NCBI GenBank assembly: GCA_021818955.1
Contig: JAKASR010000029.1
Span: forward strand, 1-45,758
Length of the DNA: 45,758 bases
Source of the DNA: Acidobacteriota bacterium
GTDB lineage: Bacteria; Acidobacteriota; Terriglobia; Terriglobales; SCQP01
Direction of reading: 5' to 3'
Position numbers and translations under genes: made by a program. Shown here in pieces: positions 1 through 31,880 of the stretch. The notes under the pieces were generated by a model. It saw nothing but the letters and a program-made list of their open reading frames with translations, did no database searches and had not been told where the DNA came from. The number at the start of each line of letters is the position of its first letter. The stretch's first letter is position 1.

Positions 1-294
1 CGAGGCAGGAGGGAGGCCGCCTCGGAGCTGCTGCCGCGAGTGCACTTGGTGATCTCTCTGCTCAAACGCTGGCTGCTGGGGACGCATCAGGGCGCAGTCA
101 GCCATCGTCATTTGGACGATTACCTGGTCGAATTCACATTCCGCTTCAACCGTCGAAGGTCCCGAAGCCGCGGTAAGCTCTTTTTCCGCTTGGCGCAACT
201 GGCCGTCACCATTGAGCCGATCACTGAGCGCCAACTCATTCATCGTCATACCAATGCCGCTGCGTCAAAACCACAATCCCTTGGGGCCTGGTGA
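1..294 (+). CDS. ISXO2-like transposase, C-terminal part (cut by window edge)
   Basis: The frame is open from base 1 to the TGA at 292-294, so the gene starts upstream of the window; the GTG at 40 is an internal codon, not the start. The visible 97 residues carry the end of the ISXO2-like (IS1595 family) DDE domain: the stretch LLPRVHLVISLLKRWLLGTH, then QGAVSHRHLDDYLVEFTFRF and the RRRSRSRGKLFFRLAQLAV tail. This family moves DNA by cut-and-paste or copy-paste transposition. The reading frame is intact as far as visible. The C-terminus continues to the candidate terminal repeat with hardly any spacer, as is usual for compact insertion sequences. Family assignment is confident; activity cannot be judged. 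Confidence 0.8.
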   Translation, partial: RGRREAASELLPRVHLVISLLKRWLLGTHQGAVSHRHLDDYLVEFTFRFNRRRSRSRGKLFFRLAQLAVTIEPITERQLIHRHTNAAASKPQSLGAW

Positions 295-452: not shown

Positions 453-1547
453 CTACATGGCTTGGGGCAAGGCGTGGGAGCAGGCGCTTTCCAGAGCCGC
501 CAACAGTTCCGCAGCGCGATGGCGGCCGGTATGAGATTCGAAGACCCGCGCCCGGGCCGCCGCGCGAAGCTGGGTAAGAGGATCGCGGGAGCGCAGGATT
601 TCGAGCATTTCACCAGTCTCGGAGGCAACCAGAATCTCAACCCCCGGCTGGAAAAAGCTATCCAGCCCTGGCCAGGGATCGCTGACGATGACAGCGCCGC
701 AAGCGGCGGCTTCAAACAAGCGGATGGAGGGCGAATAGCCCGCTTCGACCATAGCCTGGCGGGTCAGATTCAAGCAGAACCGGCTGCTGGCATAAAGCCC
801 GCGGTGATCGCGAGGGTAGAGGTGAATGACATGCCTCACATTGGGGGGCCACTGGGCGGCATCGGGATAGAGCGGGCCGGCGATCAGGAAGCGGGCCTGC
901 GGCAACTGGCGCGCTGGCGCGAGCAGCAGCCGTTTGAGCTTGGACTGGCGGTCGGGAGTATAGGTGCCCATATAGCTGAGGTCATTTGAGAGTTGCGGGG
1001 CAAAAGTCTCTCCGGCGCGGGCAGGGTAATAAACCTCCGGATCGAAGCTGCAATACAGCGGCACGGCTTGGCGGGTGCCAAAGCAGCGCGCCAGCTCAGC
1101 CAACAACGGCCCACCGGTAAAACTGAAATAGGCATCCAGCGCCGGAATGTGCTCAGGGCGGAGGTATTCGCAAACTCCGCGGCGCAGCGCATCCAGAGTA
1201 ATTGGCGTATCGATATCGTAAAAGGCGATCCGGGGATGGTCGGCGGCAAGCAAGGTGTCGAGCAACACGGTGGCGTGCGGAGTAAAGCTGCCCACCAGGA
1301 CGGCATCGGCATCCAATACGGCGGAGCGCGCGGCCGCCAGCATCTGAGCGCGGGTTTCGAGCAGGTACAACTCGCAAAAGCCGGGGTGAGGCAGATCGCG
1401 GTTGGATTGATACCATTCCTGCTGGAGTTCGTAGAATACCGCCTGATGACCGAGCTGGCGCCAACCGCTCAGTAACGAGCGATAAGTTACGGCATGGCCA
1501 TTGCCCCAGGAGGACGAGAGAGTCAAGCCAAAAATCGCCAGCCGCAT
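453..1547 (-). CDS. CgeB-like glycosyltransferase (third of three)
   Basis: Predicted cytoplasmic glycosyltransferase of 364 residues with the CgeB architecture. The N-terminal Rossmann half opens with MRLAIFGLTLSSSWGNGHA and the C-terminal half is of the Glyco_trans_1_2 type (PF13524). The latter carries GYSPSIRLFEAAACGAVIVS followed by DPWPGLDSFFQPG, the nucleotide-sugar-binding loop of GT-B enzymes with the conserved Glu of FEAAACG. Its start at 1547 shares one base with the stop of the preceding gene, so translation is probably coupled. It is the last gene of a five-gene minus-strand operon. Donor and acceptor sugars cannot be read from sequence. Its similarity to the two upstream neighbours suggests tandem duplication followed by specialisation for successive sugar additions. 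Confidence 0.8.
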   Translation of the reverse strand: MRLAIFGLTLSSSWGNGHAVTYRSLLSGWRQLGHQAVFYELQQEWYQSNRDLPHPGFCELYLLETRAQMLAAARSAVLDADAVLVGSFTPHATVLLDTLLAADHPRIAFYDIDTPITLDALRRGVCEYLRPEHIPALDAYFSFTGGPLLAELARCFGTRQAVPLYCSFDPEVYYPARAGETFAPQLSNDLSYMGTYTPDRQSKLKRLLLAPARQLPQARFLIAGPLYPDAAQWPPNVRHVIHLYPRDHRGLYASSRFCLNLTRQAMVEAGYSPSIRLFEAAACGAVIVSDPWPGLDSFFQPGVEILVASETGEMLEILRSRDPLTQLRAAARARVFESHTGRHRAAELLAALESACSHALPQAM

Positions 1548-2674
1548 TAAGCCGCCTCAATCAGCCAGGGCTGGTGCGGGCGAGCCCCGCGCCGAATCAG
1601 AATCGATTCCGCCAGGCGGGCGCGTTGCTCGTAGCTGTGCTCCAGGAGCGCGCGACGGTGCATGCGCTCGCCCATCTGACGCGCACGCTCGGGGGTCAGC
1701 GTTTGCAGCAGTGACTGTAGTTGCAGCCTATCTTCAATCTGGAATATTTCCTCGCCTGGAGAGAAAAACTGTTCCAGCCCATCCCAGTGATCGCTGATCA
1801 CACAAGCCGCGGCGCCGGCGGCTTCGAAGATCCGGGTGGGGGGAGAGTAGCCGTAATCGGCCATTGAGCTGCGATTGATATTCAAAACGGTTTCCGCGGA
1901 GGAGTTGGCGACGTTGTGGTCGGCACAGCCGACATGTCCGGCATAGATGACATTGGCGGGCATCGGAAGGTCACGCCAGCCTTCCCCTCCGAGTAAAAAG
2001 GTGAATTGCGGTAGCGCCCGCGCGGTCTGGAAGAAGAAGCGCTGGACGCGTTCCTCGCGATCGGGCAGGCGGTGGCCGAGAAAGGACATCTTAGCGCGCC
2101 AGCGCGAATCGGGCGAGACCGGGAAATGGGTTTCCGGATCCAAGCCGTTGTAGATGGGATAGCAGGCGCGGGCGCCCAAGGCGAGATATTCGCGGATGAC
2201 CCGCGCGCCGCCGCCGTAGGTTAACACCAGGTCATAGTCGGGTAGGCATTTAAGCAGCCGGGCATCGCGGCGACTCCAGAGATCGCTTAAAGTTGCGGGC
2301 GAATCCACATCCCAGTACACCGCCAAGCGGCGATCTTCCCCGGCGGCGCGGGCGGCTTCGATCAGAGCGCCATCCAGGAATGCGTCTTCCACTCCGATGC
2401 CGCTGTGCTTGATCAGCACATCGGCTTGGGCGGCGGCGGCCAGACAGCGCTCCAATTCGGCGTGATTGCGATAGATGACGGAAGTGGCGTAAGGCGCCCG
2501 CTCGATATCGCGGTGGCGCTGGCGCTCGAAGGCGTCGGGCTCATAAAAGACGATCTCATGACCGCGGACATGCAGGTATTTATAGATGCCCCGGTAATAA
2601 GTGGCGGCGCCGTTCCAATAGCTGGACAGCAAGCTGGAGCCAAAGACGTGCAGCTTCAGCCTTATGCGGCGCAC
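1547..2674 (-). CDS. CgeB-like glycosyltransferase (second of three)
   Basis: Predicted GT-B glycosyltransferase of 375 residues and a paralogue of both flanking genes. The N-terminus (LHVFGSSLLSSYWNGAATYY) resembles the SSWGNGHA region of the next gene. The C-terminal PF13524-type domain has GYSPPTRIFEAAGAAACVIS followed by DHWDGLEQFFSPGEEI. The start at 2674 lies 13 bases inside the upstream gene, and the stop overlaps the next start by one base, which points to a translationally coupled polycistron. The ATG used here precedes MRRIRLKLHVFG; a start a few codons later is possible. The usual Cys/Gly-rich FEALACG loop reads FEAAGAAAC here, so the donor pocket may differ from the sisters. The specific sugar is unknown. 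Confidence 0.8.
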   Translation of the reverse strand: MRRIRLKLHVFGSSLLSSYWNGAATYYRGIYKYLHVRGHEIVFYEPDAFERQRHRDIERAPYATSVIYRNHAELERCLAAAAQADVLIKHSGIGVEDAFLDGALIEAARAAGEDRRLAVYWDVDSPATLSDLWSRRDARLLKCLPDYDLVLTYGGGARVIREYLALGARACYPIYNGLDPETHFPVSPDSRWRAKMSFLGHRLPDREERVQRFFFQTARALPQFTFLLGGEGWRDLPMPANVIYAGHVGCADHNVANSSAETVLNINRSSMADYGYSPPTRIFEAAGAAACVISDHWDGLEQFFSPGEEIFQIEDRLQLQSLLQTLTPERARQMGERMHRRALLEHSYEQRARLAESILIRRGARPHQPWLIEAA

Positions 2675-3789
2675 AGAGCCTCCAGTTGCTGGGCGCGATG
2701 GCGGCAGGTATGCCGTTGCAAGACGGTATCACGACCCTGGCTGGCGAGTTCGACGCGGCAACGGTCATCGCGTAAAAGCTCGGCGAGCATGGCGGTCATT
2801 TCGGCGCCGTCGCGCGCCATCCAGTAATCTCGGCCCGCCTGGAACAAGCCTTCGCGGTCTTCCCAGGGGCTCGAAACCAGCGCGATACCGCAAGCCAGGG
2901 CTTCAAAGACGCGAATCGTTGGAATGCCGCTCAAGCCATTGGCGTAAGTTTGGCGGGGAATATGAACACTGGCGCAGGCGGCGCCGTAAACTTCCACGGC
3001 GCGCAGATTAGGCAGATAGCCGGCATAACGAATGCCGGAGCGATCCATTTCTCCGCGAGCCCAGTCGGGATAACGGACGCCATGCGCCAAAAAACGGTAT
3101 TGCGGCAGGTGGCTGGCAGGCAGCAGAAGAAACTCGCGAATCTGGCGAGTCCGTTCCTCATCGCCCCAGTTGCCGATCCAGACGACTTCGGCCCGAGGCT
3201 CGGCGGAGGGCGCCAGAGGGCGAAATACGGTTTCATCGGCGGCTTCGTGAAAGCAGTAGGCGCGACAGACGCCAAAGCGGGTGAGATAAAGCTGGCGCAA
3301 GCTCTCGCCAAAGGCTAAAACCGCATCAAACTCGCGCAAGGGAAAACGCGCGATCGCTTCCGGTTGGCTGTAGCCGCGATGATGGGTGTCGAGCAGGAAT
3401 AATTGAAAGCCCAGGCGGCGGCGCAGCCGCGCCAGCACTTCCCCCAACTCCGGTTCGTTCCATTCATGCAGCAGCACGACCGCGGTCTCGCGTAGACGGC
3501 GGCTGAGCCAGTCTTCGGCGATTTCCGGCCAGCGGCGGGCGCAAGGATAAAACTCGGGGCGCAATTCCGGATAATGACGGCGAAAATCCTGGATGGCGCT
3601 GAGGGCGACGACCGGTTCTTCGGCAAACAATTGCGCCAGCGACCAGGCGCCCCAATTTCCCGGTTGTCCCTCGAAAGCCTGCACCTGGTGTCCGCGCGCG
3701 ATCAACGCGCGCGCCAGGCCGCGCAGGAAATGGGCATTGCCGTGATTCCAATCGGAAAGCCAGGAATGAGCGAAGATGGCTAGGCGCAT
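2662..3789 (-). CDS. CgeB-like glycosyltransferase (first of three)
   Basis: Predicted GT-B glycosyltransferase of 375 residues. I place the start at 3789 (MRLAIFAHSWLSDWNHGNAH) because the paralogue at 1547 begins with the same MRLAIF motif and this start overlaps the upstream stop by 10 bases. A longer open frame to 3936 would run through the end of the GT4 gene and has no family similarity. The C-terminal half carries IPTIRVFEALACGIALVSSP followed by WEDREGLFQAGRDYW, the PF13524 signature. All three CgeB-like proteins share the pattern of a W, a D/G pair and a [L]FFxPG-like loop after the motif. Likely role: one transfer step in building a surface or storage glycan. The acceptor is not known. 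Confidence 0.8.
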   Translation of the reverse strand: MRLAIFAHSWLSDWNHGNAHFLRGLARALIARGHQVQAFEGQPGNWGAWSLAQLFAEEPVVALSAIQDFRRHYPELRPEFYPCARRWPEIAEDWLSRRLRETAVVLLHEWNEPELGEVLARLRRRLGFQLFLLDTHHRGYSQPEAIARFPLREFDAVLAFGESLRQLYLTRFGVCRAYCFHEAADETVFRPLAPSAEPRAEVVWIGNWGDEERTRQIREFLLLPASHLPQYRFLAHGVRYPDWARGEMDRSGIRYAGYLPNLRAVEVYGAACASVHIPRQTYANGLSGIPTIRVFEALACGIALVSSPWEDREGLFQAGRDYWMARDGAEMTAMLAELLRDDRCRVELASQGRDTVLQRHTCRHRAQQLEALCAA

Positions 3790-4931
3790 GGCGTTTCCGC
3801 GATTTCCGCCCGGGCGGGCGTGGGCGCGCCGTGCGCCAGCGCCTGACAATACAGGTGTAAATATTTTTTCGCCATGCGGGAGGAGTGGTAGCGCTCGATG
3901 GCAAGCCGGCGGGCGGCTGTGGCGGCACGATCGCATTGCGCGGGAGCCGCGGCCAGGGAGGCCAGAATGTGTTCTAGCGCCGGACGGGCATCGGGATGAG
4001 GCGGGGGCGGGAAATAGTAGGCGGTATCGCCCCAGATTTCGCGCTGGCTTTCAATGTCGGCCAGCACCAGCGCGCAACCGGCCAGTGCCGCTTCCAGCGC
4101 TGATAATCCGAACGGCTCATAACGGGCGCACCCGATGAACAGGCGCGCGCGTTCGAGCAAATCGAGCCGGCCGGCGGAATTCAATTCGCCCAGGAAGCGC
4201 ACCTCCGGCGACTGCGGCAGGGTGGGAGCGGCGCCATTTTCCGGATGCCGCAACGAGCCGGCCACCTCAATTGGAATTGGCCATTTCCACTGTCCCAGCC
4301 AGGCCAGTTGCTTGGCGTCATCCCACACCCGCCCCATAGCGGCGGCCAGATTCTGCTTGACGGGCGCCGGCCGGTTTTCCGCGGCTGCGCGGCCATTGGA
4401 AATAATCACGACGGGCCGGCTGCAGCTATAGCTCTGGCGCAAGTCGCGGTCGACCGCCCGCGTTGGCGCCACCACTTGGCCGGCATTCGCAAGCGCCCGC
4501 AACACCAACCCGCGGTACCAAGCGTGAAATTTATCCGGAGGCGGTGCCATCTGCCGCACATGCCGCCACCAGGAAACTACATCGCTATGGACGGTGAGGA
4601 CCGTGGGATAGCTATTTTCACCGCAGGCAAAAGCAAAATGGTTGGCGTGAACCAGATCCACACGTAGTTCGGCGGCTAACCACGCAAGATGGCGCTGCGC
4701 CTCAGCGGTGTCCCGCTCGGCGGCTTGCATCCATTCCAGGCGCCACGGCAGGGTATAAAGGGGAATATCCGCATGCTCCAACTCGCGCAAATTTTCGGTC
4801 GAGGGCTTTGGACCCAAGCTGACCAAGGTGACCCGGCAGCCCTGTTTCCGCAGTTGCTGGCTTAATTCGAGAGTGAAAGTCCAAATTCCACCCCAGGTAT
4901 CGGTCGTGAGCAGAATATGGAGTGTTTGCAT
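3780..4931 (-). CDS. GT4-type glycosyltransferase
   Basis: Predicted retaining glycosyltransferase with the GT-B fold, 383 residues. The start is taken at 4931 (MQTLHILLTTDTWGGIWTFT), where the typical glycosyltransferase-4 N-terminal strand and glycine loop begin; an ATG 12 codons upstream is possible but overlaps the preceding gene. The C-terminal Glycos_transf_1 domain contains RYEPFGLSALEAALAGCALV, the classical E-x7-E motif that binds the nucleotide-sugar donor. This is the second gene of the operon, 13 bases after the glycosidase-like gene and overlapping the first CgeB-like gene. A GT4 enzyme followed by three CgeB-like enzymes suggests four successive transfers onto one acceptor. Membrane anchors and signal peptides are absent, so it should act in the cytoplasm. 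Confidence 0.8.
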   Translation of the reverse strand: MQTLHILLTTDTWGGIWTFTLELSQQLRKQGCRVTLVSLGPKPSTENLRELEHADIPLYTLPWRLEWMQAAERDTAEAQRHLAWLAAELRVDLVHANHFAFACGENSYPTVLTVHSDVVSWWRHVRQMAPPPDKFHAWYRGLVLRALANAGQVVAPTRAVDRDLRQSYSCSRPVVIISNGRAAAENRPAPVKQNLAAAMGRVWDDAKQLAWLGQWKWPIPIEVAGSLRHPENGAAPTLPQSPEVRFLGELNSAGRLDLLERARLFIGCARYEPFGLSALEAALAGCALVLADIESQREIWGDTAYYFPPPPHPDARPALEHILASLAAAPAQCDRAATAARRLAIERYHSSRMAKKYLHLYCQALAHGAPTPARAEIAETPCA

Positions 4932-4944
4932 ACGCGCCCTCCGC

Positions 4945-5874
4945 TCAGACCGGCTGCAGATCGACATCCGCCGCGGCGGTTGCTGGCAGAGCTTTAGGCC
5001 GGCAATAACGCTGGGCTACCCACCCGGCAAACCGGGCAAATTCCTGAGTATTGAGCGGGGGACTATTATGCACAGGCAGAATGCCGAAGTGCTCGGGGGT
5101 ATAACACAAAGTCAATGTGATTTCAAAATCCGCGAGCTGGCTCATTTGGCGATCGAACCAGGCTTCGGCGCCGGGACGATACCAATCGGCCCAGCTCAGG
5201 CCTGTCCGTAGCTTGCGCACGCCAAGCCGGTGCAAATAGCCAATCGCCGGTTGCAGGCGATGATCATCAAAATGAAACCACTGGCAAATGCCCATGCCGG
5301 CGGGGAAGTGATAGAACGCCGGCTTGTAATTACCATCGGCGCGGATTAAGCCCATATAGTAATGACGGTAATAAGCACTACCCTCGTTTTCGCGGTGGCG
5401 AGTGGTCGCGGCCCAAGTCGGAGGCAAGTCCATGAGGCTATACCAAAACAGCCGCTCGACACGATGCAGAAGCAATTGCGCCGTTGTTTTTAGGCCAAAC
5501 ACCTGAACTTCCTCGGCCCCGAACGAAGAACAACCGGCTTCGGTCACCCAAACCGGATGGCTACAGGCTTTTTTGATGGATTCGATTTGGCGCGGCCATT
5601 CGTGAATATTCCAGTGGTTCCAGTCGAGAGGAAATCCGTGGACGGCGACAATATCAATGTTTTCCAGGGCGCCATGGCTATCGAGCAGGCGAACGAAGGA
5701 TGGATCAATGGGGGATATGCCGCCCAGCACAATCCGCAACCCCGGCGCCTGGCGGCGTACCTCGGCGGCCGCCTCCTTCAGCAGGCGGGAGTAAATCTCC
5801 CAGTCCTTGTCCAACTGGAAATCCCAGTGTGAGAGGTTATTCGGCTCGTTCCAAAGCATCAGGGCTTCGACCAT
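4945..5874 (-). CDS. TIM-barrel glycoside-hydrolase-like protein with permuted domain order
   Basis: 309 residues from ATG 5874; the frame stays open to 6054, but the extra 60 residues show no family character. Catalytic-type motifs sit far forward: LMLWNEPNNL puts the presumed acid/base Glu at residue 10, and VWVTEAG puts the presumed nucleophile at residue 112. In clan GH-A barrels these mark strands 4 and 7. The segment from residue 194 (GMGICQWFHFDD, LRTGLSWADWYRPG, TLTLCYTPEHFGI) reads like strands 1 to 3, which normally come first. So the order is strands 4-8 then 1-3. No signal peptide is visible. It heads the glycosyltransferase operon, 13 bases before the GT4 gene. It could trim or sense a lipid-linked glycan intermediate, or be a non-hydrolytic transferase. 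I vaguely recall similar proteins beside other CgeB clusters but cannot verify this. Confidence 0.65.
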   Translation of the reverse strand: MVEALMLWNEPNNLSHWDFQLDKDWEIYSRLLKEAAAEVRRQAPGLRIVLGGISPIDPSFVRLLDSHGALENIDIVAVHGFPLDWNHWNIHEWPRQIESIKKACSHPVWVTEAGCSSFGAEEVQVFGLKTTAQLLLHRVERLFWYSLMDLPPTWAATTRHRENEGSAYYRHYYMGLIRADGNYKPAFYHFPAGMGICQWFHFDDHRLQPAIGYLHRLGVRKLRTGLSWADWYRPGAEAWFDRQMSQLADFEITLTLCYTPEHFGILPVHNSPPLNTQEFARFAGWVAQRYCRPKALPATAAADVDLQPV

Positions 5875-6095: not shown

Positions 6096-7604
6096 TTGAG
6101 CAATATCGATGAAGCTCGCCGCAGGCTGGTCACCGTGCTGGGCGCGGATGCCGTGGTATGGGACGGCATTGGGCGCATGCTTTATGAGTACGACGGCGGC
6201 GTGGATCGCGCTGTGCCGGACCTGATCGCTTTTCCGGCCAATGAAGCCGATGTAGTGGTAATAGCCCGGATCGCTACGGAAAGCGGGCTGCCGCTAATTC
6301 CGCGCGGGGCCGGAACCGGCTTGAGCGGCGGCGCAATCGCACGCGAAGGCGGAATTGTGGTGGCCTTTAATCGGATGCGAAAGATCCGGCGGCTGGATTA
6401 TGAAAATGCCCGGGCCATAGTCGAACCCGGAGTAGTCAACCTGGAGTTATCGCAAACCACAGCGCCGGCCGGATATATATTCGTCCCTGATCCCTCCAGC
6501 CAGCAGGCATGCACGATTGGCGGCAATGTAGCCGAGAACAGCGGCGGGCCGCATACCCTGGCCTATGGGGTTACGGTCAACCACATCACCGGGTTGCGCG
6601 CAGTGCTGGCGGATGGACGCGTGGTCTCGACCGGCGGTTTAGCCAATGACATCCCCGGTTATGACCTGACCGGAACCCTGGTGGGCTCGGAAGGCACAAT
6701 GGCGATGGTGACGGCTATTGCCGCCAAGTTGACTCGCCTGCCGGAGGCGGTGCGCACGCTTTTGGCTGTCTATGCGCGGATTGAATCCGCCGCCGATACC
6801 GTCTCCGCGGTTACGGCGGCGGGAATTACTCCGGCCGCGATGGAAATGCTCGACGGCTTCACGCTCCGCGCGGTGGAGGCGTACATACACGCCGGTTATC
6901 CGCTCGATGCCGCCGCGGTGTTGTTGATCGAACTGGAAGGACTGAAAGAAGAAGTTGCAAGCCAGGCGGAAGAGGTGCTGCGAATTTGCCGGGAAAGCGG
7001 TGCGGCGGAAGTACGGCTGGCGCGCGACGCGGAAGACCGCGCCCGCTTATGGAAAGGCCGCAAACATGCCTTTGGGGCGGTGGGACGGATCAGCCCGAAC
7101 TTTTATGTCATGGATGGCGTCATCCCCCGCACCCGCATCGCGGATGTTTTGCGTGACGGCGACCATATCGGCCGGCACTATCAATTGCGGATCGGCAATA
7201 TTTTTCATGCCGGGGACGGCAATCTGCACCCATTGGTTTTCTACGACGGGCGGCAAGCGGGCGAGTTGGATCGGGCCATTGCCGCCAGCCGGGAAATCAT
7301 CCGCTTATGCGTCGAAGCCGGCGGTTCGATTTCGGGTGAACACGGCGTGGGCATGGAAAAAGATGAGCTGATGCCGTGGATGTTCTCCGAAGCCGATCTG
7401 GATTTTATGCGTCAATTGCGCGCGGTCTGGAATCCGGAGGGGCGGCTGAATCCCGGCAAATTACTGCCTGCGCGCGCCTGCCGGGAAACACGGGATGGCG
7501 GGCCCGGCGGCTTGCGGATGGCCGCCGGCCAGGATGATGGGGATCGTTCGGATCAGCCGCGTAGCGCGGCGGCCGCCGGCCAGCAGCAAACGGAGCCGCG
7601 ATGA
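6096..7604 (+). CDS. glcD: Glycolate oxidase, FAD-binding subunit GlcD
   Basis: Catalytic flavoprotein subunit of glycolate (2-hydroxy-acid) oxidase, which turns glycolate into glyoxylate and passes electrons to the membrane quinone pool through GlcE/GlcF. Residues 40-220 form the PCMH-type FAD domain with LIPRGAGTGLSGGAIA, DPSSQQACTIGGNVAENSGG and GTLVGSEGTMAMVT. The C-terminal FAD-oxidase-C domain contains GNIFHAGDGNLHPLVFYD and GGSISGEHGVGMEKDEL, with the conserved His of GDGNLHP and GEHGVG. Length of 502 matches the family. The start is a TTG with no clear ribosome binding site; an in-frame TAG shortly upstream rules out a longer protein. The last 35 residues are low-complexity. The stop overlaps the glcE start (ATGA). 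Confidence 0.93.
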   Translation: MSNIDEARRRLVTVLGADAVVWDGIGRMLYEYDGGVDRAVPDLIAFPANEADVVVIARIATESGLPLIPRGAGTGLSGGAIAREGGIVVAFNRMRKIRRLDYENARAIVEPGVVNLELSQTTAPAGYIFVPDPSSQQACTIGGNVAENSGGPHTLAYGVTVNHITGLRAVLADGRVVSTGGLANDIPGYDLTGTLVGSEGTMAMVTAIAAKLTRLPEAVRTLLAVYARIESAADTVSAVTAAGITPAAMEMLDGFTLRAVEAYIHAGYPLDAAAVLLIELEGLKEEVASQAEEVLRICRESGAAEVRLARDAEDRARLWKGRKHAFGAVGRISPNFYVMDGVIPRTRIADVLRDGDHIGRHYQLRIGNIFHAGDGNLHPLVFYDGRQAGELDRAIAASREIIRLCVEAGGSISGEHGVGMEKDELMPWMFSEADLDFMRQLRAVWNPEGRLNPGKLLPARACRETRDGGPGGLRMAAGQDDGDRSDQPRSAAAAGQQQTEPR

Positions 7605-8881
7605 GTACGTCCGCGCCGCTTACCGGGCCGGATTGGCGCGAGTTGGAAAACCTGCTTGGCGCCGAAGCCCTACGGCGGATGGAACGAGCGATTTTCCCGG
7701 CCAATGCGGAACAAACCGCGGCTTTGGCGCGCTGGGCCGGCAGCCATGGCATCATGCTGCGCCCGGGCGGCGAGACCCGGCGGGACGCGGAAACCTCCGG
7801 CCTGCGAGTGGATTTCAGCCGGCTGCAAGCGACGCGCTTTTATGAGCCGAACGACTTGACCGCCGGGTTTGAAGCGGGCATGGCCATTACGGATCTGGAA
7901 AAGATCCTGGGCGCCCAAAGCCAATTCCTGCCGTTCGATATTCCCCGTAACGGCAAGCGCAAGCTCGGCTCGGCCATGGGAGAACACGCCTCCGGTCCGC
8001 TGCGCCAGGCTTATGGAACGATGCGCGACTTTACGATCGGCATTGAGTTCATATCGGGGCGGGGCGAGATCGTGCACGCCGGCGGCCGCGTTGTCAAAAA
8101 CGTCGCCGGTTATGATTTGATGAAACTGCTGATCGGCAGCCGCGGCAGCCTGGGATTAATTACGGGTGTAAATTTCCGGGTTTTTCCCCGCCCCCGCGCC
8201 ACCGCAACCCACCTCATTGAAGTGCCCCGGCTCGAGGATGCTGAGCGGCTGCGCCAAGCCATACAGGCCTCCTGGCTTAGGCCGCTGGCTTTCGAGCTCT
8301 ACACGGCTGAAACATCTTCGCCTTCATCCTGGCTTGCGGCCATACGCTTTACCGGCGGCGAGGCAACGCTCGTACGCTGCCGGCAGGATTTACAAGCAAT
8401 TGCCGCCAAGCTGGGCTTAGTCGTGCGAGATGTTCTCAAAGAAGACGAGCCGGAGTTTTGGAATATTTATGCCAAACGAGCCCCATTCGAATCCGGTTGC
8501 TGGCTGCATCTTTCCGCGCCCCCCGCGCTCGGTGCCGCCGCTTTGGCCATCTGCCAGGAAGTCTTGCAAGCCGGGACCGGCGCGAGGCCGGGCGCTATGC
8601 TTGAATTTCAGGGGCGCCTGAGTTTGGGCGTGTATCGCTTGCATCGAGGAACTCCTCCCGATTCCGCAACGCTGGCATGCTGCCGTCAACGCTTGCGCCA
8701 AATCGGATATTCCGGGTGGGGCGACACGGGCGCAGATATCCACCTGAGCTGGCCCGAAGCGTCCACTCCCGCCGACCGCTGGGGGGAGTGGACGCAGGAC
8801 CGCGAGCTGATGAGGCAAATTAAAATGGAGCTGGATCCGTTGCGCATTTTTCCCGACCCCTTTGGCCTTTTGAGCGCATGA
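7601..8881 (+). CDS. glcE: Glycolate oxidase, FAD-binding subunit GlcE
   Basis: Second FAD-domain subunit of the glycolate oxidase complex. The N-terminal FAD_binding_4 half is visible as MLRPGGETRRDAETSG, FDIPRNGKRKLGSAMGEHAS and GGRVVKNVAGYDLMKLLIGS with GSLGLITGVNFRVFP. The VVKNVAGYDLMKL stretch is diagnostic for GlcE. Length 426 is at the upper end for the family (about 350-420), and the second half is more divergent. It overlaps glcD by four bases (ATGA) and glcF by four bases, so the three subunits are translated together. GlcE is thought to support assembly or electron transfer rather than to bind substrate itself; that is family knowledge, not seen here. Confidence 0.92.
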   Translation: MSTSAPLTGPDWRELENLLGAEALRRMERAIFPANAEQTAALARWAGSHGIMLRPGGETRRDAETSGLRVDFSRLQATRFYEPNDLTAGFEAGMAITDLEKILGAQSQFLPFDIPRNGKRKLGSAMGEHASGPLRQAYGTMRDFTIGIEFISGRGEIVHAGGRVVKNVAGYDLMKLLIGSRGSLGLITGVNFRVFPRPRATATHLIEVPRLEDAERLRQAIQASWLRPLAFELYTAETSSPSSWLAAIRFTGGEATLVRCRQDLQAIAAKLGLVVRDVLKEDEPEFWNIYAKRAPFESGCWLHLSAPPALGAAALAICQEVLQAGTGARPGAMLEFQGRLSLGVYRLHRGTPPDSATLACCRQRLRQIGYSGWGDTGADIHLSWPEASTPADRWGEWTQDRELMRQIKMELDPLRIFPDPFGLLSA

Positions 8882-10239
8882 CCTCCGCCCCCACAGCCGC
8901 AGCGGTATCGGCTGAAAACCGTCCCACGGATGGCGTTTCCGCATTTCAAACTGACGACCGCCCGCGTTGGGAAGATTACTCGCGCTGCGTGCATTGCGGA
9001 CTCTGCCTGAACGTCTGTCCCACGTTTCGGCTGCTGGGTGAAGAGATGGATTCGCCGCGCGGGCGCATTTACCAGATCGCGCAAGCCGATGCCGGCCGCC
9101 TGGAACTGGAGCGCTTGCGGACACACCTGGATCGCTGTCTCGATTGCCGCGCCTGCGAAACCGCCTGCCCTTCCGGGGTGCAGTATGGCCGTATTCTCGA
9201 AGGGGCGCGGGCGGAACTGGCGGCGGCAGACCGCCTTGCGGCGGGCAAGCGCCTGCGCGACCGGTTGGCCGGGCGCCTGCGGAGGCATTTATTCGAGCGC
9301 GTTTTGCCCAGCCGAGGCCGGATGCGGCTTTATGCCTCGCTGCTCGATGCCGGGCAACGGATGGGGCTGCCTGGGCTTGCCGAACGCATTGGGCTGTTGC
9401 GCGCGCTGGGCTTGGAAAACGCCGCACGGCTGGCGCCGCGGCTCGCGCGCCCGTTTTTCCATCGGGAAATCGGCCAAACTTTTCCCGCCCACGGCGAACG
9501 GCGGGCGCGGGTGGTGCTGCTGGCCGGCTGCATGCAAAACATTTTTTTTACGAACATGAACCGCGCGGCGCTGCGCGTCTTGCAATGGAACGGTTGCGAG
9601 GTGGAGATTCCCGCCGGGCAAACCTGCTGCGGCGCGCTGCACATGCATGCCGGCGAACGCGAGACCGCGCGCCGGCTGGCGAGAAAAAATCTCGAAGCTT
9701 TTGACGCCGGCGGCTTTGACGCCATCGTGACCGCCAGCGCCGGCTGCGGCTCGACACTGAAGGAATATGGCGAATTGCTTGCGCAAGATGCTCGCGCCGC
9801 GGTGTTTGCCGGAAAGGTGCGCGACATTACCGAATTTCTGGCCGCGCTCGGACTGCGCAACGATGGGCTGCGCGCGCTGCCGGCGAGCGTGACCTATCAG
9901 GATGCCTGTCATTTGGCGCACGGACAGCGCATTCGTTCAGCGCCGCGAGAGCTGTTGAGGGCGGTGCCCGGGCTCAAGCTGATCGAGATGCCGCACGCCG
10001 ACCAATGCTGCGGCAGCGCCGGAACTTATAATCTCGAACAGCCGGAAATTGCGGGCCGCCTGCTGCGGGAAAAGATGCAGTGGGCGCGCTCGACCGGGGC
10101 CGATTGGATTGTCACCGCCAATCCCGGCTGCCAACTGCAAATCCAGGCCGGGGTGCGCGCGTCCGGCCAGCCTCAGCCGGTATTGCACGTGATCGAGTTG
10201 CTGGCTATTGCGCACGGCTTCCCCCCAATGCCCGATTGA
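8878..10239 (+). CDS. glcF: Glycolate oxidase, iron-sulfur subunit GlcF
   Basis: Iron-sulfur subunit that carries electrons from the GlcD flavin toward the quinone pool. Near the N-terminus are two 4Fe-4S ferredoxin motifs: CVHCGLCLNVCPTF and, about 50 residues later, CLDCRACETACPSG. The C-terminal two-thirds hold two CCG domains (DUF3400/PF02754 type): GCMQNIFFTNMNRAALRVL with AGQTCCGALHMHAG, and YQDACHLAHGQRI with ADQCCGSAGTYNL. Length 453 is slightly longer than typical because of about 25 extra N-terminal residues. The start ATG overlaps the glcE stop. No terminator hairpin with a T-tract is evident downstream. Confidence 0.93.
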   Translation: MTSAPTAAAVSAENRPTDGVSAFQTDDRPRWEDYSRCVHCGLCLNVCPTFRLLGEEMDSPRGRIYQIAQADAGRLELERLRTHLDRCLDCRACETACPSGVQYGRILEGARAELAAADRLAAGKRLRDRLAGRLRRHLFERVLPSRGRMRLYASLLDAGQRMGLPGLAERIGLLRALGLENAARLAPRLARPFFHREIGQTFPAHGERRARVVLLAGCMQNIFFTNMNRAALRVLQWNGCEVEIPAGQTCCGALHMHAGERETARRLARKNLEAFDAGGFDAIVTASAGCGSTLKEYGELLAQDARAAVFAGKVRDITEFLAALGLRNDGLRALPASVTYQDACHLAHGQRIRSAPRELLRAVPGLKLIEMPHADQCCGSAGTYNLEQPEIAGRLLREKMQWARSTGADWIVTANPGCQLQIQAGVRASGQPQPVLHVIELLAIAHGFPPMPD

Positions 10240-27282: not shown

Positions 27283-27555
27283 TCGCTTCCTTTCCCGCCG
27301 ACCTTGCAGCATAGAAAATCTCCGGCGCCGCAGCCGTGACCGCCGACATAGCTTGAGTTGATATATAACGAAGCCGGGCAGGGCGGGAGCGAGCAAAATC
27401 GCGGTTTTTGACCAGCATCATGCTTTCCATTCGCGCCGCCTCGTCCGGCGAGGTCATGACGCCGGGCACGGCCAGGTTTGCGGATAAGAACCGCCGCGAG
27501 GAACGGCGCAGGCGCGGCGCGCCGGCCGAGATGTGTTAGCATCGTTTCTGTTCGT

Positions 27556-27729
27556 GCCCTGGGTGTCCCGGCAAGCCGGGATGAAAAGGGAAGCCGGGTG
27601 CAATTCCCGCACGGCCCCGCCACTGTAAGCGGCGAGCCGGCTCTTCAATCGCCACTTGGCCGCCAGCAGGCGGCCGGGGAAGGGAAGAGCCGCAGCGAAG
27701 ACCCGCAAGTCAGGAGACCTGCCCCGGGC
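27556..27729 (+). promoter_or_regulatory. Cobalamin (adenosylcobalamin) riboswitch
   Basis: The cobalamin-riboswitch consensus is readable in order: GGGAAGCCGGGTGCAA near 27588-27603, then ACGGCCCCGCCACTGTAAG (the B12 box region), a variable stem GGCCGCCAGCAGGCGGCC, the GGGAAGAGCC and GCGAAGACCCGCAAG stretch, and AAGTCAGGAGACCTGCC at 27707-27723. GCCCTGGG (27556-27563) can pair with CCCCGGGC (27722-27729) as closing stem P1, seven of eight pairs. It lies about 230 bases before the ATG of the TonB-dependent receptor and should switch that gene and cobQ off when B12 is plentiful. Confidence 0.93.
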
Positions 27730-27903
27730 TGGTTCAGCCAGTGGTCCGAGTTACCCGATTTCCAAGTGAATTCGGAACGGGCCACCGCGATTCGAGGGGA
27801 ATCGCCATGGTGCCAGCTTACCAATCCGGCGCGGTTTTCATTTTTTCCGCTAGCGCGGCGGTGACTGTCACCGACGCCGCGCGCCCGGGCCGGCCCCGTG
27901 TTG

Positions 27904-27953
27904 ATTCCTCTCACTCGCGCGCAGTGAAGCGATTTCGAGAACATGAGAGGAAT
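27904..27953 (+). promoter_or_regulatory. Hairpin that would hide the receptor's ribosome binding site
   Basis: ATTCCTCTCA at 27904-27913 is the exact reverse complement of TGAGAGGAAT at 27944-27953, with a 30-base loop. The second arm contains the Shine-Dalgarno sequence GAGAGGA (27945-27951) for the ATG at 27957. Pairing would block translation. Placed between the B12 riboswitch and the receptor gene, it is a natural translational expression platform. How the aptamer controls its folding is inference. Confidence 0.65.
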
Positions 27954-27956
27954 GCC

Positions 27957-30380
27957 ATGTCTTTGCTCCGCCGGTGGTTAGTTGTCAGCCTGTGGCTTTT
28001 TCCCACCCTGGCGCAGGCCTCCACCCCCAACGCGCGGCTGCGCGGAACGGTGAGCGATGCGTTCGGGCGGCCGATTGCGGGCGCGCGGGTGCGGCTTTAC
28101 AGCCGCCAGGGAAGCCTGGCTGGCACCGCCCGCACGCCAGCGAGCGGCCAATATCAAATGCGCGTTCCCGCCGGCGTGTACCGGCTGCAAATCACCGCGC
28201 CGAAATTTCAGACGCTGAGCGCGGTGGTGCGGCTCTCCGCCCGTCATCCCCGGCGGCGCGATGCCACGCTGGCGCTGGCGCCGCTGCGCCAGCGGATCGT
28301 GGTGGCCGCCACCGGCGTGCCCATGCCCGCGGCGCAAACCGGGCAATCGGTCTCAATTCTTTCGCGCCGCCGCCTGGCGCGGCTGAATGGGCTGACCGCC
28401 GCGCGCGCGCTTTCCATGCTGCCGGGAGTACAGGTGCTGCACACGGGCGCCACCGGAGGCTTGACGACGGTATATCTGCGCGGCGGCAACGGGCGTTTCG
28501 CCGCGGTCGAATTGGACGGCATTCCGCTGCAGCGCTTCGATTTCGGCTCATTCGATTTTTCCGAGCTGCTGCCCGGCTCGCTGGACGAGTTGCAGGTGGT
28601 GCGCGGGCCTGACAGCGTGCTTTATGGCTCGGGCGCGGTGTCGGGCGTGATCGCGCTGGAGACGCGCCGCGGCGGCCGGCGGCTGGCGCCGGAACTTTCC
28701 GGCGATGCCGCCTGGGGCAGCTACGCCACCGTGACGCAAAGCGATTCGCTGGCCGGCGCCAGAGGCGGCTTCGACTACGCCCTCGACTTCGGCTACCTGG
28801 GCGCTCACAACCAGATTGCCAACAGCCATTACCGCAACGCCAACGGGCTGTTGCGGCTGGGCTGGCACGCGCTGCCCGGAACCTGGCTGCACATGGATGC
28901 CGCCGATCTGCACGGCAATGCCGCCCTGCCCAACGCCATCGCATTTTTTGGCCTTCCCGATCATGCCTGGCAGCGCCAGACGGGCGGGTATGGCGGTTTT
29001 ACGCTCGACCAGCAGACCACGGCCAACTGGCACAATGAGCTGCAAGTTTCCGAAGCCGCCGCGAATTATTTTTATGAAGAGCCCGCGCCCGCCGGCATTC
29101 CGTACAATCCCTTCGGGTTGGGCGTGAACTATATCGGAGAGCCGGTCACGATCAGCGGCGCCAATGGTTATCGCGCCAGCGGCCAGGCGATTATGACCTA
29201 TGGAGGCATTTATCCCTCCGGCTTCGGCTCCGACACGTTGCGCCGCGATTTCGACGCGCAATCGTTTTACACCTTCTCTCCGGTCGCCAGCTTTGCCGCC
29301 GGGTATCGTTATGACAACGAGCGCGGGCTTTCCAGCGGCGAGCAGTTCAGCCGGCACGACGATGGCGTTTACTTCGAGTTCAAAGAGGGGCTCTGGAACC
29401 GTCTTTTTCCCAGCGGCGGCCTCGCCTGGGACCGCAATACCCCCTTCGGCTCGGCCGCCAGCCCGCAGGCGGCAATCGCGTTTTATCCGCGCCTGGGCCC
29501 GGCTGATGGCGCGATCAACCAGACCCGGCTGCGCGCCAGCGCCGGCGCGGCCTGGAAAGCGCCGGATTTATTCGATCAGGCTTCATCGCTCTATCAGGAA
29601 CTGGCGGCGGCGGGCGCATATAGTTCCATCCAGAAATACGGCATCCAGCCGGAACACCCGGAGCGCAGCCACGACTTCGATGCCGGCATCGATCAGTACC
29701 TGTTCCAGCAGCGGTTGCGCATCAGCGCGACCGTCTTCGATAACCGCGAATACGACCTGATCGAGTTCGTGCCCGCTGCCGCCTTGCCCCGCCTGGGAGT
29801 GCCGCCGAGCGTGGCGGCGCAAACCTTCGGCGCGAATTTCAACTCGCTATCGGAATCCGACAAAGGGCTGGAGCTTTCCGCCGCCGCGCGGCTGCCGCAG
29901 GGTTGGGTGTTGCGCGGCGCGTTCACGCGGCTGCATGCGCGCGTGCTGCGCAGCTATAGCAGCGATGCGCTGGCGCCGTCGTACAATCCCAATATTCCCA
30001 ACGTGCCCATCGGCGCTTACGCACCGCTGGCGGGCGCGCGCCCTTTCCGGCGCGCCCCGGAAAGCGGCAGCCTGGAACTTTTTTACGCGCATGCCGCCTG
30101 GCAATTCGATCTGAACAGTTATCTATCCAGCCGGCGCGACGACAGCACGTATTTGCTGGACAAGGATTTTGGCAATACCCTGCTGCTGCCCAACCGCAAC
30201 CTGTCGCCCGGTTTCGCGCTTTTCAACCTGATGGGCGGCTGGCGGCTGTCGCGGCGGCTGGAATTGCGCCTGGGGCTGAACAATATCTTCAACCAGCATC
30301 CGCAGGAAGTTTTTGGTTATCCCGGCCTGGGGCGCACGGTCTCCGCCGGCCTGCATTTTACGTTTCTGCCCGGGCGGTAA
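27957..30380 (+). CDS. btuB: BtuB-like TonB-dependent outer-membrane receptor
   Basis: Predicted outer-membrane transporter for vitamin B12 or related corrinoids, 807 residues from ATG 27957. The start is fixed by the GAGAGGA ribosome site and a signal peptide (MSLLRRWLVVSLWLFPTLAQ, ending AS). The frame is open to 27741, but that region is riboswitch leader. Residues about 25-100 form a carboxypeptidase-regulatory-like beta-sandwich (LRGTVSDAFGRPIAGARVRL). The plug follows with ARALSMLPGVQVLHTGATGG, TTVYLRGGNGRFAAVELDGI and QVVRGPDSVLYGSGAVSGVI. A beta barrel ends in GLGRTVSAGLHFTFLPGR with a terminal-strand aromatic pattern. Substrate assignment rests mainly on the upstream riboswitch and the downstream cobQ. 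Confidence 0.88.
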   Translation: MSLLRRWLVVSLWLFPTLAQASTPNARLRGTVSDAFGRPIAGARVRLYSRQGSLAGTARTPASGQYQMRVPAGVYRLQITAPKFQTLSAVVRLSARHPRRRDATLALAPLRQRIVVAATGVPMPAAQTGQSVSILSRRRLARLNGLTAARALSMLPGVQVLHTGATGGLTTVYLRGGNGRFAAVELDGIPLQRFDFGSFDFSELLPGSLDELQVVRGPDSVLYGSGAVSGVIALETRRGGRRLAPELSGDAAWGSYATVTQSDSLAGARGGFDYALDFGYLGAHNQIANSHYRNANGLLRLGWHALPGTWLHMDAADLHGNAALPNAIAFFGLPDHAWQRQTGGYGGFTLDQQTTANWHNELQVSEAAANYFYEEPAPAGIPYNPFGLGVNYIGEPVTISGANGYRASGQAIMTYGGIYPSGFGSDTLRRDFDAQSFYTFSPVASFAAGYRYDNERGLSSGEQFSRHDDGVYFEFKEGLWNRLFPSGGLAWDRNTPFGSAASPQAAIAFYPRLGPADGAINQTRLRASAGAAWKAPDLFDQASSLYQELAAAGAYSSIQKYGIQPEHPERSHDFDAGIDQYLFQQRLRISATVFDNREYDLIEFVPAAALPRLGVPPSVAAQTFGANFNSLSESDKGLELSAAARLPQGWVLRGAFTRLHARVLRSYSSDALAPSYNPNIPNVPIGAYAPLAGARPFRRAPESGSLELFYAHAAWQFDLNSYLSSRRDDSTYLLDKDFGNTLLLPNRNLSPGFALFNLMGGWRLSRRLELRLGLNNIFNQHPQEVFGYPGLGRTVSAGLHFTFLPGR

Positions 30381-30383
30381 CCT

Positions 30384-31880
30384 ATGCCGGCGCGGCGCAT
30401 GATGATCCAGGCGACGGCTTCGCACGCGGGCAAATCATTGCTGGCGGCGGCGCTATGCCGCTGGTTTGCGCGCCAGGGGCTGCGAGTGGCTCCGTTCAAA
30501 GCCTGGAACATGTCGCTGAATGCCGCGCCGGCGGCGGGCGGCGAGATCGGCTGGGCGCAAGCGCTGCAGGCTTCCGCCTGCGGCATCGAAGCCCGGGTAG
30601 AAATGAATCCGGTGCTGGTCAAGCCCAGCGGGCCGGGAGAATGCCAGCTCATCCTGTCGGGGCAGCCGGCGGGACGGCTGCAGGCGGGCGAGACGGGCCC
30701 GCGCGAGGCGGCCATTGCCGCCATCCGTTCCGCCTGGGCGGCGATCGAGGCGGAGCACGATCTGGTCGTGCTCGAAGGCGCCGGCAGTCCGGCCGAGATC
30801 AATCTGCTCGACCGCGATCTGGCCAACATGTGGATGGCGCGCGAGGCCGATGCCCCGGTGCTGGTGGTGGGCGACATCGACCGCGGCGGCGTGTTTGCCG
30901 CCCTGCTGGGCACCTGGATGCTCGCGCCGGAAGCCGAGCGCATTCGCGGCTTCATCATCAATAAATTCCGCGGCGACGCCCGCCGGCTGGAGGGCGGCCT
31001 GGAAGCGCTGCAGCGCAAGACCGGCGTGCCAACGCTCGGCATCGTGCCCTACCACCCGCCCGAGTTGCCGGAAGAGGATGCGCTGGGCGTTCCCGCCGGC
31101 TCGCTGCCGCCCGCGGATGGGCGGCGGCTGCGCATCGGGGTGGTGCGCCTGCCGCACATGGCTAATTTTTCCGATTTCGATTCGCTGGCGCTGGAGCCGG
31201 AAACCGCGCTGGCCTACAGTTTTTCGCCGCGCGTGCTGGCTGAAGCGGATGTCCTGATACTGCCCGGCACGCGCGCCACCGTAGCCGATCTTGCCGCGCT
31301 GCGGGCGGCCGGGCTGGAGCCGGTGATTCGCGCGGCGGCGGCGGCCGGCAAGCCGGTCTGGGGCATTTGCGGCGGGTATCAGATGCTAGCCGAGTCCATC
31401 GCCGACCCCGAAGGCGTCGAAACCGACGCGCCCCTGACGCGCGGGTTGGGGTTACTGCCGGTGCAGATTCGTTTTGAACGCCACAAGCGTTCGGAAGCCG
31501 TAGCCGGGGAATGCGCCGAATGCGAGCTGCCCGGGCTGCCGGGTTTGCCCGTACGCGGCTATTTCATGCAGCATGGGCGCGCCGGTAACACGCCCCACCC
31601 GTTATTTAGCTTGCGCGCCTCCGCCGGCGGCGAGCCCGAACGGGAAGGCTGCCTTCAAGGCTCGGTGGCCGGCACGGCGCTGCACGACATCTTCAATGGC
31701 GAGCATCGAGAAGCCGCGTTCCGGCGGGCGGTGGTGGCCGGGTGGCGGCGGCAATGCGGGCTGCCTGCCATCACCGCCCATGCGCCCTTGCCCGGGCTTG
31801 CCGCGCGGCTCGACGCCTGGACCGAGCATGTCATCGGCCACCTGGACATGGCGGCGATCGCGCGGATTGCCGGGCTGTAG
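30384..31880 (+). CDS. cobQ: Cobyric acid synthase CobQ/CbiP, divergent at signature positions
   Basis: Glutamine-dependent amidase that amidates the b, d, e and g carboxylates of adenosylcobyrinic a,c-diamide. The N-terminal ATPase domain has IQATASHAGKSLLAAALCRW (P-loop), VVLEGAGSPAEINLLDRDLA, DIDRGGVFAALLGTWML and GFIINKFRGDARRLEGGLEA. The C-terminal type I glutaminase has GICGGYQML with Cys329 as nucleophile and a candidate catalytic His434 in ALHDIF. Odd: the usual FKAQN and IGRAQA read FKAWN (Trp41) and IGWAQA (Trp57), and GYEIH is GYFMQ. It begins three bases after btuB, so it shares the B12-controlled transcript. Function as CobQ is likely, but altered activity is possible. Confidence 0.85.
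   Translation: MPARRMMIQATASHAGKSLLAAALCRWFARQGLRVAPFKAWNMSLNAAPAAGGEIGWAQALQASACGIEARVEMNPVLVKPSGPGECQLILSGQPAGRLQAGETGPREAAIAAIRSAWAAIEAEHDLVVLEGAGSPAEINLLDRDLANMWMAREADAPVLVVGDIDRGGVFAALLGTWMLAPEAERIRGFIINKFRGDARRLEGGLEALQRKTGVPTLGIVPYHPPELPEEDALGVPAGSLPPADGRRLRIGVVRLPHMANFSDFDSLALEPETALAYSFSPRVLAEADVLILPGTRATVADLAALRAAGLEPVIRAAAAAGKPVWGICGGYQMLAESIADPEGVETDAPLTRGLGLLPVQIRFERHKRSEAVAGECAECELPGLPGLPVRGYFMQHGRAGNTPHPLFSLRASAGGEPEREGCLQGSVAGTALHDIFNGEHREAAFRRAVVAGWRRQCGLPAITAHAPLPGLAARLDAWTEHVIGHLDMAAIARIAGL

Follow-up and report, generated by a model that had tools for sequence, protein, structure and literature searches.

The locus at positions 453–5874 of contig JAKASR010000029.1, from an Acidobacteriota bacterium (assembly GCA_021818955.1), raises the question of what is made by five consecutive leftward genes that encode one glycosidase-like (GH-like) protein, one GT4 family glycosyltransferase and three CgeB-like glycosyltransferases, here termed C3, C2 and C1. 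The window, meaning the whole stretch of DNA analysed, is the entire contig of 45758 b (G000:C40). An initial annotation of the window took the five genes to be the best candidate there for an undescribed system; they do not stand alone but form the sugar-transfer half of a larger cassette, which has about nine genes or more. Two of its members have been modelled by NCBI, and the rest of it lies, in this genome, on another contig. The product of this widespread cassette, to which the operon contributes the glycosyl-transferring enzymes, is probably a short, chemically modified oligosaccharide. The layout given in the initial annotation, with genes overlapping or 13 bases apart, was confirmed for all open reading frames, domains and junctions:

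4945–5874, minus strand: gene for the GH-like protein (309 aa; ATG start), glycosidase-like, with a partial match to PF11790
3780–4931, minus strand: GT4 family glycosyltransferase gene (ATG start; protein start MQTLHILLTTDTWGG; PF13439 and PF13692)
2662–3789, minus strand: C3, the first CgeB-like (PF13524) glycosyltransferase of the run (ATG start; protein start MRLAIFAHSW)
1547–2674, minus strand: C2, the second CgeB-like (PF13524) glycosyltransferase (GTG start)
453–1547, minus strand: C1, the third CgeB-like (PF13524) glycosyltransferase and last gene of the operon (ATG start)

Read from the sequence, a gap of 13 bases separates the GH-like stop from the GT4 start, and the remaining genes overlap by 10 bases (GT4/C3), 13 bases (C3/C2) and 1 base (C2/C1, at TAATG).

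Homologues were sought in one genome per species, which yielded 233 stretches encoding relatives of the GH-like protein, and the best 80 of these (56–78% identity) were analysed as loci. Most of the 80 are from Acidobacteriota, the rest being from Myxococcota (including Myxococcus xanthus, Sorangium, Minicystis and Anaeromyxobacter), Planctomycetota, Verrucomicrobiota and Gemmatimonadota. The gene-order search that had been proposed found GT4-C3-C2-C1 kept in 48/80 loci, drawn from the Acidobacteriota, Myxococcota, Planctomycetota and Verrucomicrobiota, a recurrence across several phyla that is far above chance; many of the remaining loci are interrupted by contig ends. Direct adjacency of all five genes, as seen in the window, is found in 4/80 (L022, L044, L048 and L059). 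The usual order is a TIGR04290 methyltransferase, the GH-like gene, two SDR enzymes (SDR1 and SDR2), a TIGR04295 B12-radical S-adenosylmethionine (SAM) enzyme, GT4, C3, C2 and C1, and the methyltransferase–GH pairing is also conserved between phyla. In the cassette of locus L028, for example, TIGR04290 is matched at 367 bits (cut-off 300) and TIGR04295 at 638 bits (cut-off 400). An inositol-3-phosphate synthase gene sometimes joins the cassette and adjoins 5/80 loci. Among the flanking genes that the initial annotation had suggested looking for, epimerases and a methyltransferase were thus present, and UDP-galactopyranose mutase was not seen in the annotated cassettes read.

The TIGR04290 and TIGR04295 markers adjoin the GH-GT4-CgeB genes in most homologous loci, but not in the window's genome, where the methyltransferase, SDR2 and radical SAM genes are together on contig C43 (71655–74769) and score 323.5 bits (TIGR04290, cut-off 300) and 558.2 bits (TIGR04295, cut-off 400). 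The same three genes are together on contig C35 of a same-genus relative (G001), likewise separate from the operon. The cassette of this lineage is in two parts, a glycosyltransferase half and a methyltransferase–SDR2–radical SAM half. Its likeness to the TIGR04290/TIGR04295 cassette lies in neighbours that are the same, and ordered alike, in homologous loci, in the matching order of orthologous GH, GT4, C3, C2 and C1 genes and in the presence of both markers in the genome; it differs in being divided and in having no SDR1 between the GH and GT4 genes. Of 247 genomes taken from across the phylum, only three encode the GH-like protein; exactly these three have TIGR04295, and all of them have TIGR04290 over its cut-off (Fisher p=4e-7, kinship ignored). 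The occurrence is patchy. Most genomes of the window's own family contain the GH-like protein, TIGR04290 and TIGR04295, whilst none of the sampled genomes of a sister family (f2) has any of the three over cut-off. The window's genome also holds a fourth, lone CgeB-like gene (L115:8196–9260, G000:C29), which is nearest to C1 (42%). Elsewhere (e.g. L057 and L077) a lone CgeB-like gene often stands directly before the methyltransferase–GH pair.

In NCBIfam, TIGR04295 is named B12_rSAM_oligo and TIGR04290 meth_Rta_06860, both as hypothetical equivalogs; Rta_06860 is a locus tag of Ramlibacter tataouinensis. On our reading of these names, the curators evidently saw a cassette linked to oligosaccharides. 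Literature searches found no paper naming either model and nothing relevant on CgeB in Myxococcus, and the Rta_068xx genes go unmentioned in the main text of the paper on the Ramlibacter genome. The cassette is common to soil Acidobacteria, myxobacteria, rhizobia and Azospirillum, and the linking of its halves across contigs, its nine-gene core and its versions with inositol-3-phosphate synthase make the product searchable by metabolomics in tractable hosts.

The most surprising part of the locus is the permuted glycosidase. The sole Pfam match of the GH-like protein is to part of PF11790 (Glyco_hydro_cc); the label of glycosidase-like that it had been given stands, as a relative of clan GH-A, and the circular permutation had been missed. 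Sequence and predicted structure show the protein to be a clan GH-A barrel of the PslG type that has been circularly permuted, its strands running b4–b8 and then b1–b3, with both catalytic glutamates kept. An AlphaFold2 model (pLDDT 88, pTM 0.87) has eight core strands, with the glutamate of an NEP motif after the first strand and that of a TE motif at the end of the fourth; this is the spacing of b4 and b7 in clan GH-A, and therefore the chain begins at canonical b4 and ends with b1–b3. The putative acid/base (E10, NEP) and nucleophile (E112, TE) are near-invariant or invariant in alignments of homologues. When the Anaeromyxobacter homologue (L057) was compared with solved structures using phmmer, it matched PslG in its native order with 23 bits (E=4e-4, residues 4–190) and, once its C-terminal third had been moved in front, with 41.5 bits (E=9.7e-10) in a single colinear stretch, residues 9–289. 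E10 and E112 align with E165 and E276 of PslG (chain positions converted by hand count, with an offset of 26), which are reported to be its key hydrolytic residues, and normal Psl production needs PslG with its catalytic residues (PMC9075953).

A homologue in canonical order is found in Rhizobium leguminosarum, at the N-terminus of an SDR (SDR2; L130, 11632–13674). Against it, native GH-like queries gave two crossed segments and rejoined queries gave one segment of about 290 residues; when six homologues were rotated in 10-residue steps, the match to L130 was at a minimum for cuts at 20–50 and at a maximum around 160–190. Canonical-order domains fused to an SDR are also encoded at L051:947–2980 and L045:6742–8709. 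The fused copy of L130 keeps both glutamates, that of L051 has lost both (NHP, TQTG) and that of L045 has apparently lost the first (read by eye); the permuted copies within the L051 and L045 loci retain both. Foldseek/VIA searches with the native model returned generic TIM barrels and partial clan GH-A matches (GH128, GH10 and GH2; about 125–200 columns); the rows listed did not include PslG. Because these programs follow the order of the chain when aligning, the partial matches are taken as consistent with permutation, not as proof of it. Rejoining the halves brought little gain in Pfam, and it was the PslG and rotation tests that were decisive. No description of the permutation turned up in a literature search that was far from exhaustive. 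That a clan GH-A glycosidase has undergone circular permutation in nature, and that a canonical-order relative is fused to the epimerase of its pathway, is an uncommon instance of barrel evolution. An origin in viruses or phages was dismissed, as viral contigs encode no relative of the GH-like protein.

PslG, the glycosidase of Psl in P. aeruginosa, shares with the GH-like protein the clan GH-A barrel and the catalytic glutamates with their flanking motifs, is likewise encoded in a glycan biosynthesis cluster and has been reported to be intracellular (PMC9075953). The GH-like protein differs in being permuted, in its length of about 290–320 aa with no extra domain, and in being encoded in an oligosaccharide cassette as opposed to a polymerase/export cluster. 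It has no N-terminal extension, its first residues forming a core strand, which is consistent with the cytoplasmic location proposed for it in the initial annotation. PslG is GH39-like in family.

The transferases are compatible with an ordered series of steps. C1, C2 and C3 match PF13524 in Pfam with E=9e-38, 3e-32 and 2e-33, respectively, the domain being C-terminal in each. In a tree built from 89 CgeB-like sequences of the window and the homologous loci, one clade each was resolved for C1 (n=37), C2 (n=26) and C3 (n=26), with support of 0.88, 1.0 and 1.0; each clade includes a window protein and spans the sampled phyla, and the labels were assigned from best BLAST matches, so that the grouping is not wholly independent of them. 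From this clean separation across phyla, C1, C2 and C3 appear to have been distinct before the cassette spread. Three separate lineages would fit non-redundant, ordered transfer steps, and the earlier proposal of a single operon with one GT4 and three CgeB-type enzymes is supported. The resemblance to CgeB, a protein of the outer layer of Bacillus spores, extends to the PF13524 domain only: here three paralogous lineages stand in tandem with a GT4 enzyme, the NCBIfam CgeB model does not match C1–C3, and C2 has no relative among solved structures by sequence at E<=0.1. No sporulation gene was identified in the annotated homologous neighbourhoods, the unannotated loci being only partly identified, and a spore-coat role was set aside since no such context was identified. 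The combination of GT4 and inositol-3-phosphate synthase in several homologous cassettes resembles MshA-type glycosyl-inositol biosynthesis; it differs in that the GT4 enzyme of L028 scores about 21 bits with the MshA model (TIGR03449) against a cut-off of 462, and no mycothiol pathway gene was seen.

Chemistry, acceptor and role are inferred from these families, and the product is most likely a short, methylated, possibly inositol-headed oligosaccharide that is built in order. The two SDR enzymes, joined in Alphaproteobacteria by a UDP-glucuronate decarboxylase, would supply nucleoside diphosphate (NDP)-sugars. GT4 would make the first transfer onto a small acceptor, plausibly myo-inositol from the inositol-3-phosphate synthase sited in the cassette in several phyla, and C3, C2 and C1 would add one further sugar apiece. 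The methyltransferase and the B12-radical SAM enzyme may decorate the chain or the sugar nucleotide, and the permuted retaining-type glycosidase could trim, proofread or transglycosylate the product in the cytoplasm, for which PslG offers a precedent. No polymerase or flippase was identified among the recurrent neighbours and annotated cassettes, and this suggests a product of fixed length, which might be kept inside the cell or exported via an ABC exporter present near some loci. A bolder version, to which we give rather less than an even chance, is a pan-phylum pathway, probably to a radical-SAM/methyl-modified glycosyl-inositol, in which the product is acted on jointly by the permuted glycosidase and by its canonical-order paralogue, a domain that is joined to an epimerase and in some loci lacks catalytic residues; if true, this would be the pathway for an undescribed oligosaccharide.

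Several observations weigh against the oligosaccharide reading as set out here. No product, function, acceptor or member activity of the cassette was found in the sources searched. SDR1 is absent from the window operon, the candidate on contig C42 being 50% identical. The inositol-3-phosphate synthase genes of the window's genome are on other contigs, and the gene stands beside only the 5/80 loci noted above, so that the inositol acceptor is the weakest element for this lineage. Retained glutamates, moreover, would not prove hydrolysis.

Further light comes from alphaproteobacterial versions. On plasmids of Azospirillum (L123 and L126) and Bradyrhizobium (L129), the cassette includes TIGR04295, inositol-3-phosphate synthase, a histidine phosphatase, SDRs, GT4 and three glycosyltransferases; versions in Sphingobium (L124), Paracoccus (L125) and Roseomonas (L127) have the inositol-3-phosphate synthase without an annotated TIGR04295, those of Sphingobium and Paracoccus otherwise holding the full set just listed, and that of R. 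leguminosarum has TIGR04290, GT4, three glycosyltransferases and the glycosidase domain fused to an SDR. Several annotated versions also hold a UDP-glucuronic acid decarboxylase, a zinc-binding dehydrogenase or a Gfo/Idh/MocA oxidoreductase. Judged by their families, the annotated enzymes may work on NDP-pentoses and inositol. One specific form of the oligosaccharide reading, in which the cassette makes a glycosyl-inositol stress protectant (a compatible solute), draws on the inositol synthase and histidine phosphatase of these cassettes and on neighbours that include DUF1003, manganese catalase, treZ and ECF-like sigma factors. Three EcfG-like promoter motifs are present in a divergent intergenic region of Sphingobium (L124:13276–13572) and EcfG-like motifs also lie upstream of the Bradyrhizobium inositol synthase, but such motifs stand at cassette genes in 2/8 alphaproteobacterial loci, with totals near the shuffled expectation in most, and the promoter motif is a weak lead. 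The stress-related neighbours may merely belong to a common stress island, and none of the DUF1003, catalase, treZ or sigma type was seen in the window lineage; we consider a protectant role doubtful.

About equally unlikely, in our view, is a role of the cassette in an exported polysaccharide or lipopolysaccharide, for which it would make the repeat unit or a terminal decoration; the glycosidase would then act as PslG does in Psl synthesis, and the genes for polymerase and export would be elsewhere in the genome. Among solved structures, the nearest relative of the GH-like protein is PslG, which acts in an exopolysaccharide cluster, and this closest functional precedent would, by analogy, also support a surface polysaccharide; in addition, a homologue of an ABC exporter is encoded no more than 10 kb from the cassette in 9/80 loci, and a polysaccharide pyruvyl transferase is encoded near the Paracoccus and S. 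meliloti loci. Set against this, no Wzx/Wzy, chain-length or outer-membrane export gene was found among the identified recurrent neighbours and annotated cassettes, most of the 46 neighbour clusters not having been annotated singly. That the enzymes O-glycosylate a surface protein, as is thought for CgeB and related enzymes of Bacillus spores, is very improbable: the shared PF13524 domain argues for it, but among the genes identified next to the loci there was no recurrent protein acceptor, no oligosaccharyltransferase and no sporulation gene, and small-molecule chemistry is indicated by the pair of NDP-sugar SDRs, by the radical SAM enzyme and, in several phyla, by an inositol synthase.

The borders of the operon are as follows. 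An alternative, longer TTG start for the GH-like open reading frame (6054) was ruled out because an alignment of 80 homologues shares the start residue at 5874. Scans for sigma-70 promoters and terminators gave chance-level matches only. The left end of the window lies inside one further feature, outside the system:

1–294, plus strand: C-terminal end of an IS1595-type (ISXO2-like) transposase at the contig edge (PF12762, E=4e-7)

The contig starts within this gene, and the surroundings beyond it are therefore not visible from the window alone; the transposase end is probably behind the assembly break there. In the same-genus relative the operon likewise stops after C1 (L022 and L117). On the other side, divergent genes resembling glycolate oxidase subunits (6096–10239, plus strand) adjoin the operon, and such genes also adjoin the GH-like gene in two relatives (L022 and L025). 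Further into the window, a cobalamin riboswitch (27544–27740, plus strand; 117.7 bits) is followed by a TonB-receptor-like gene (27741–30380) and a CobQ-like cobyric acid synthase gene (30384–31880; both read by eye); a B12-binding domain is present in the radical SAM partner of the cassette.

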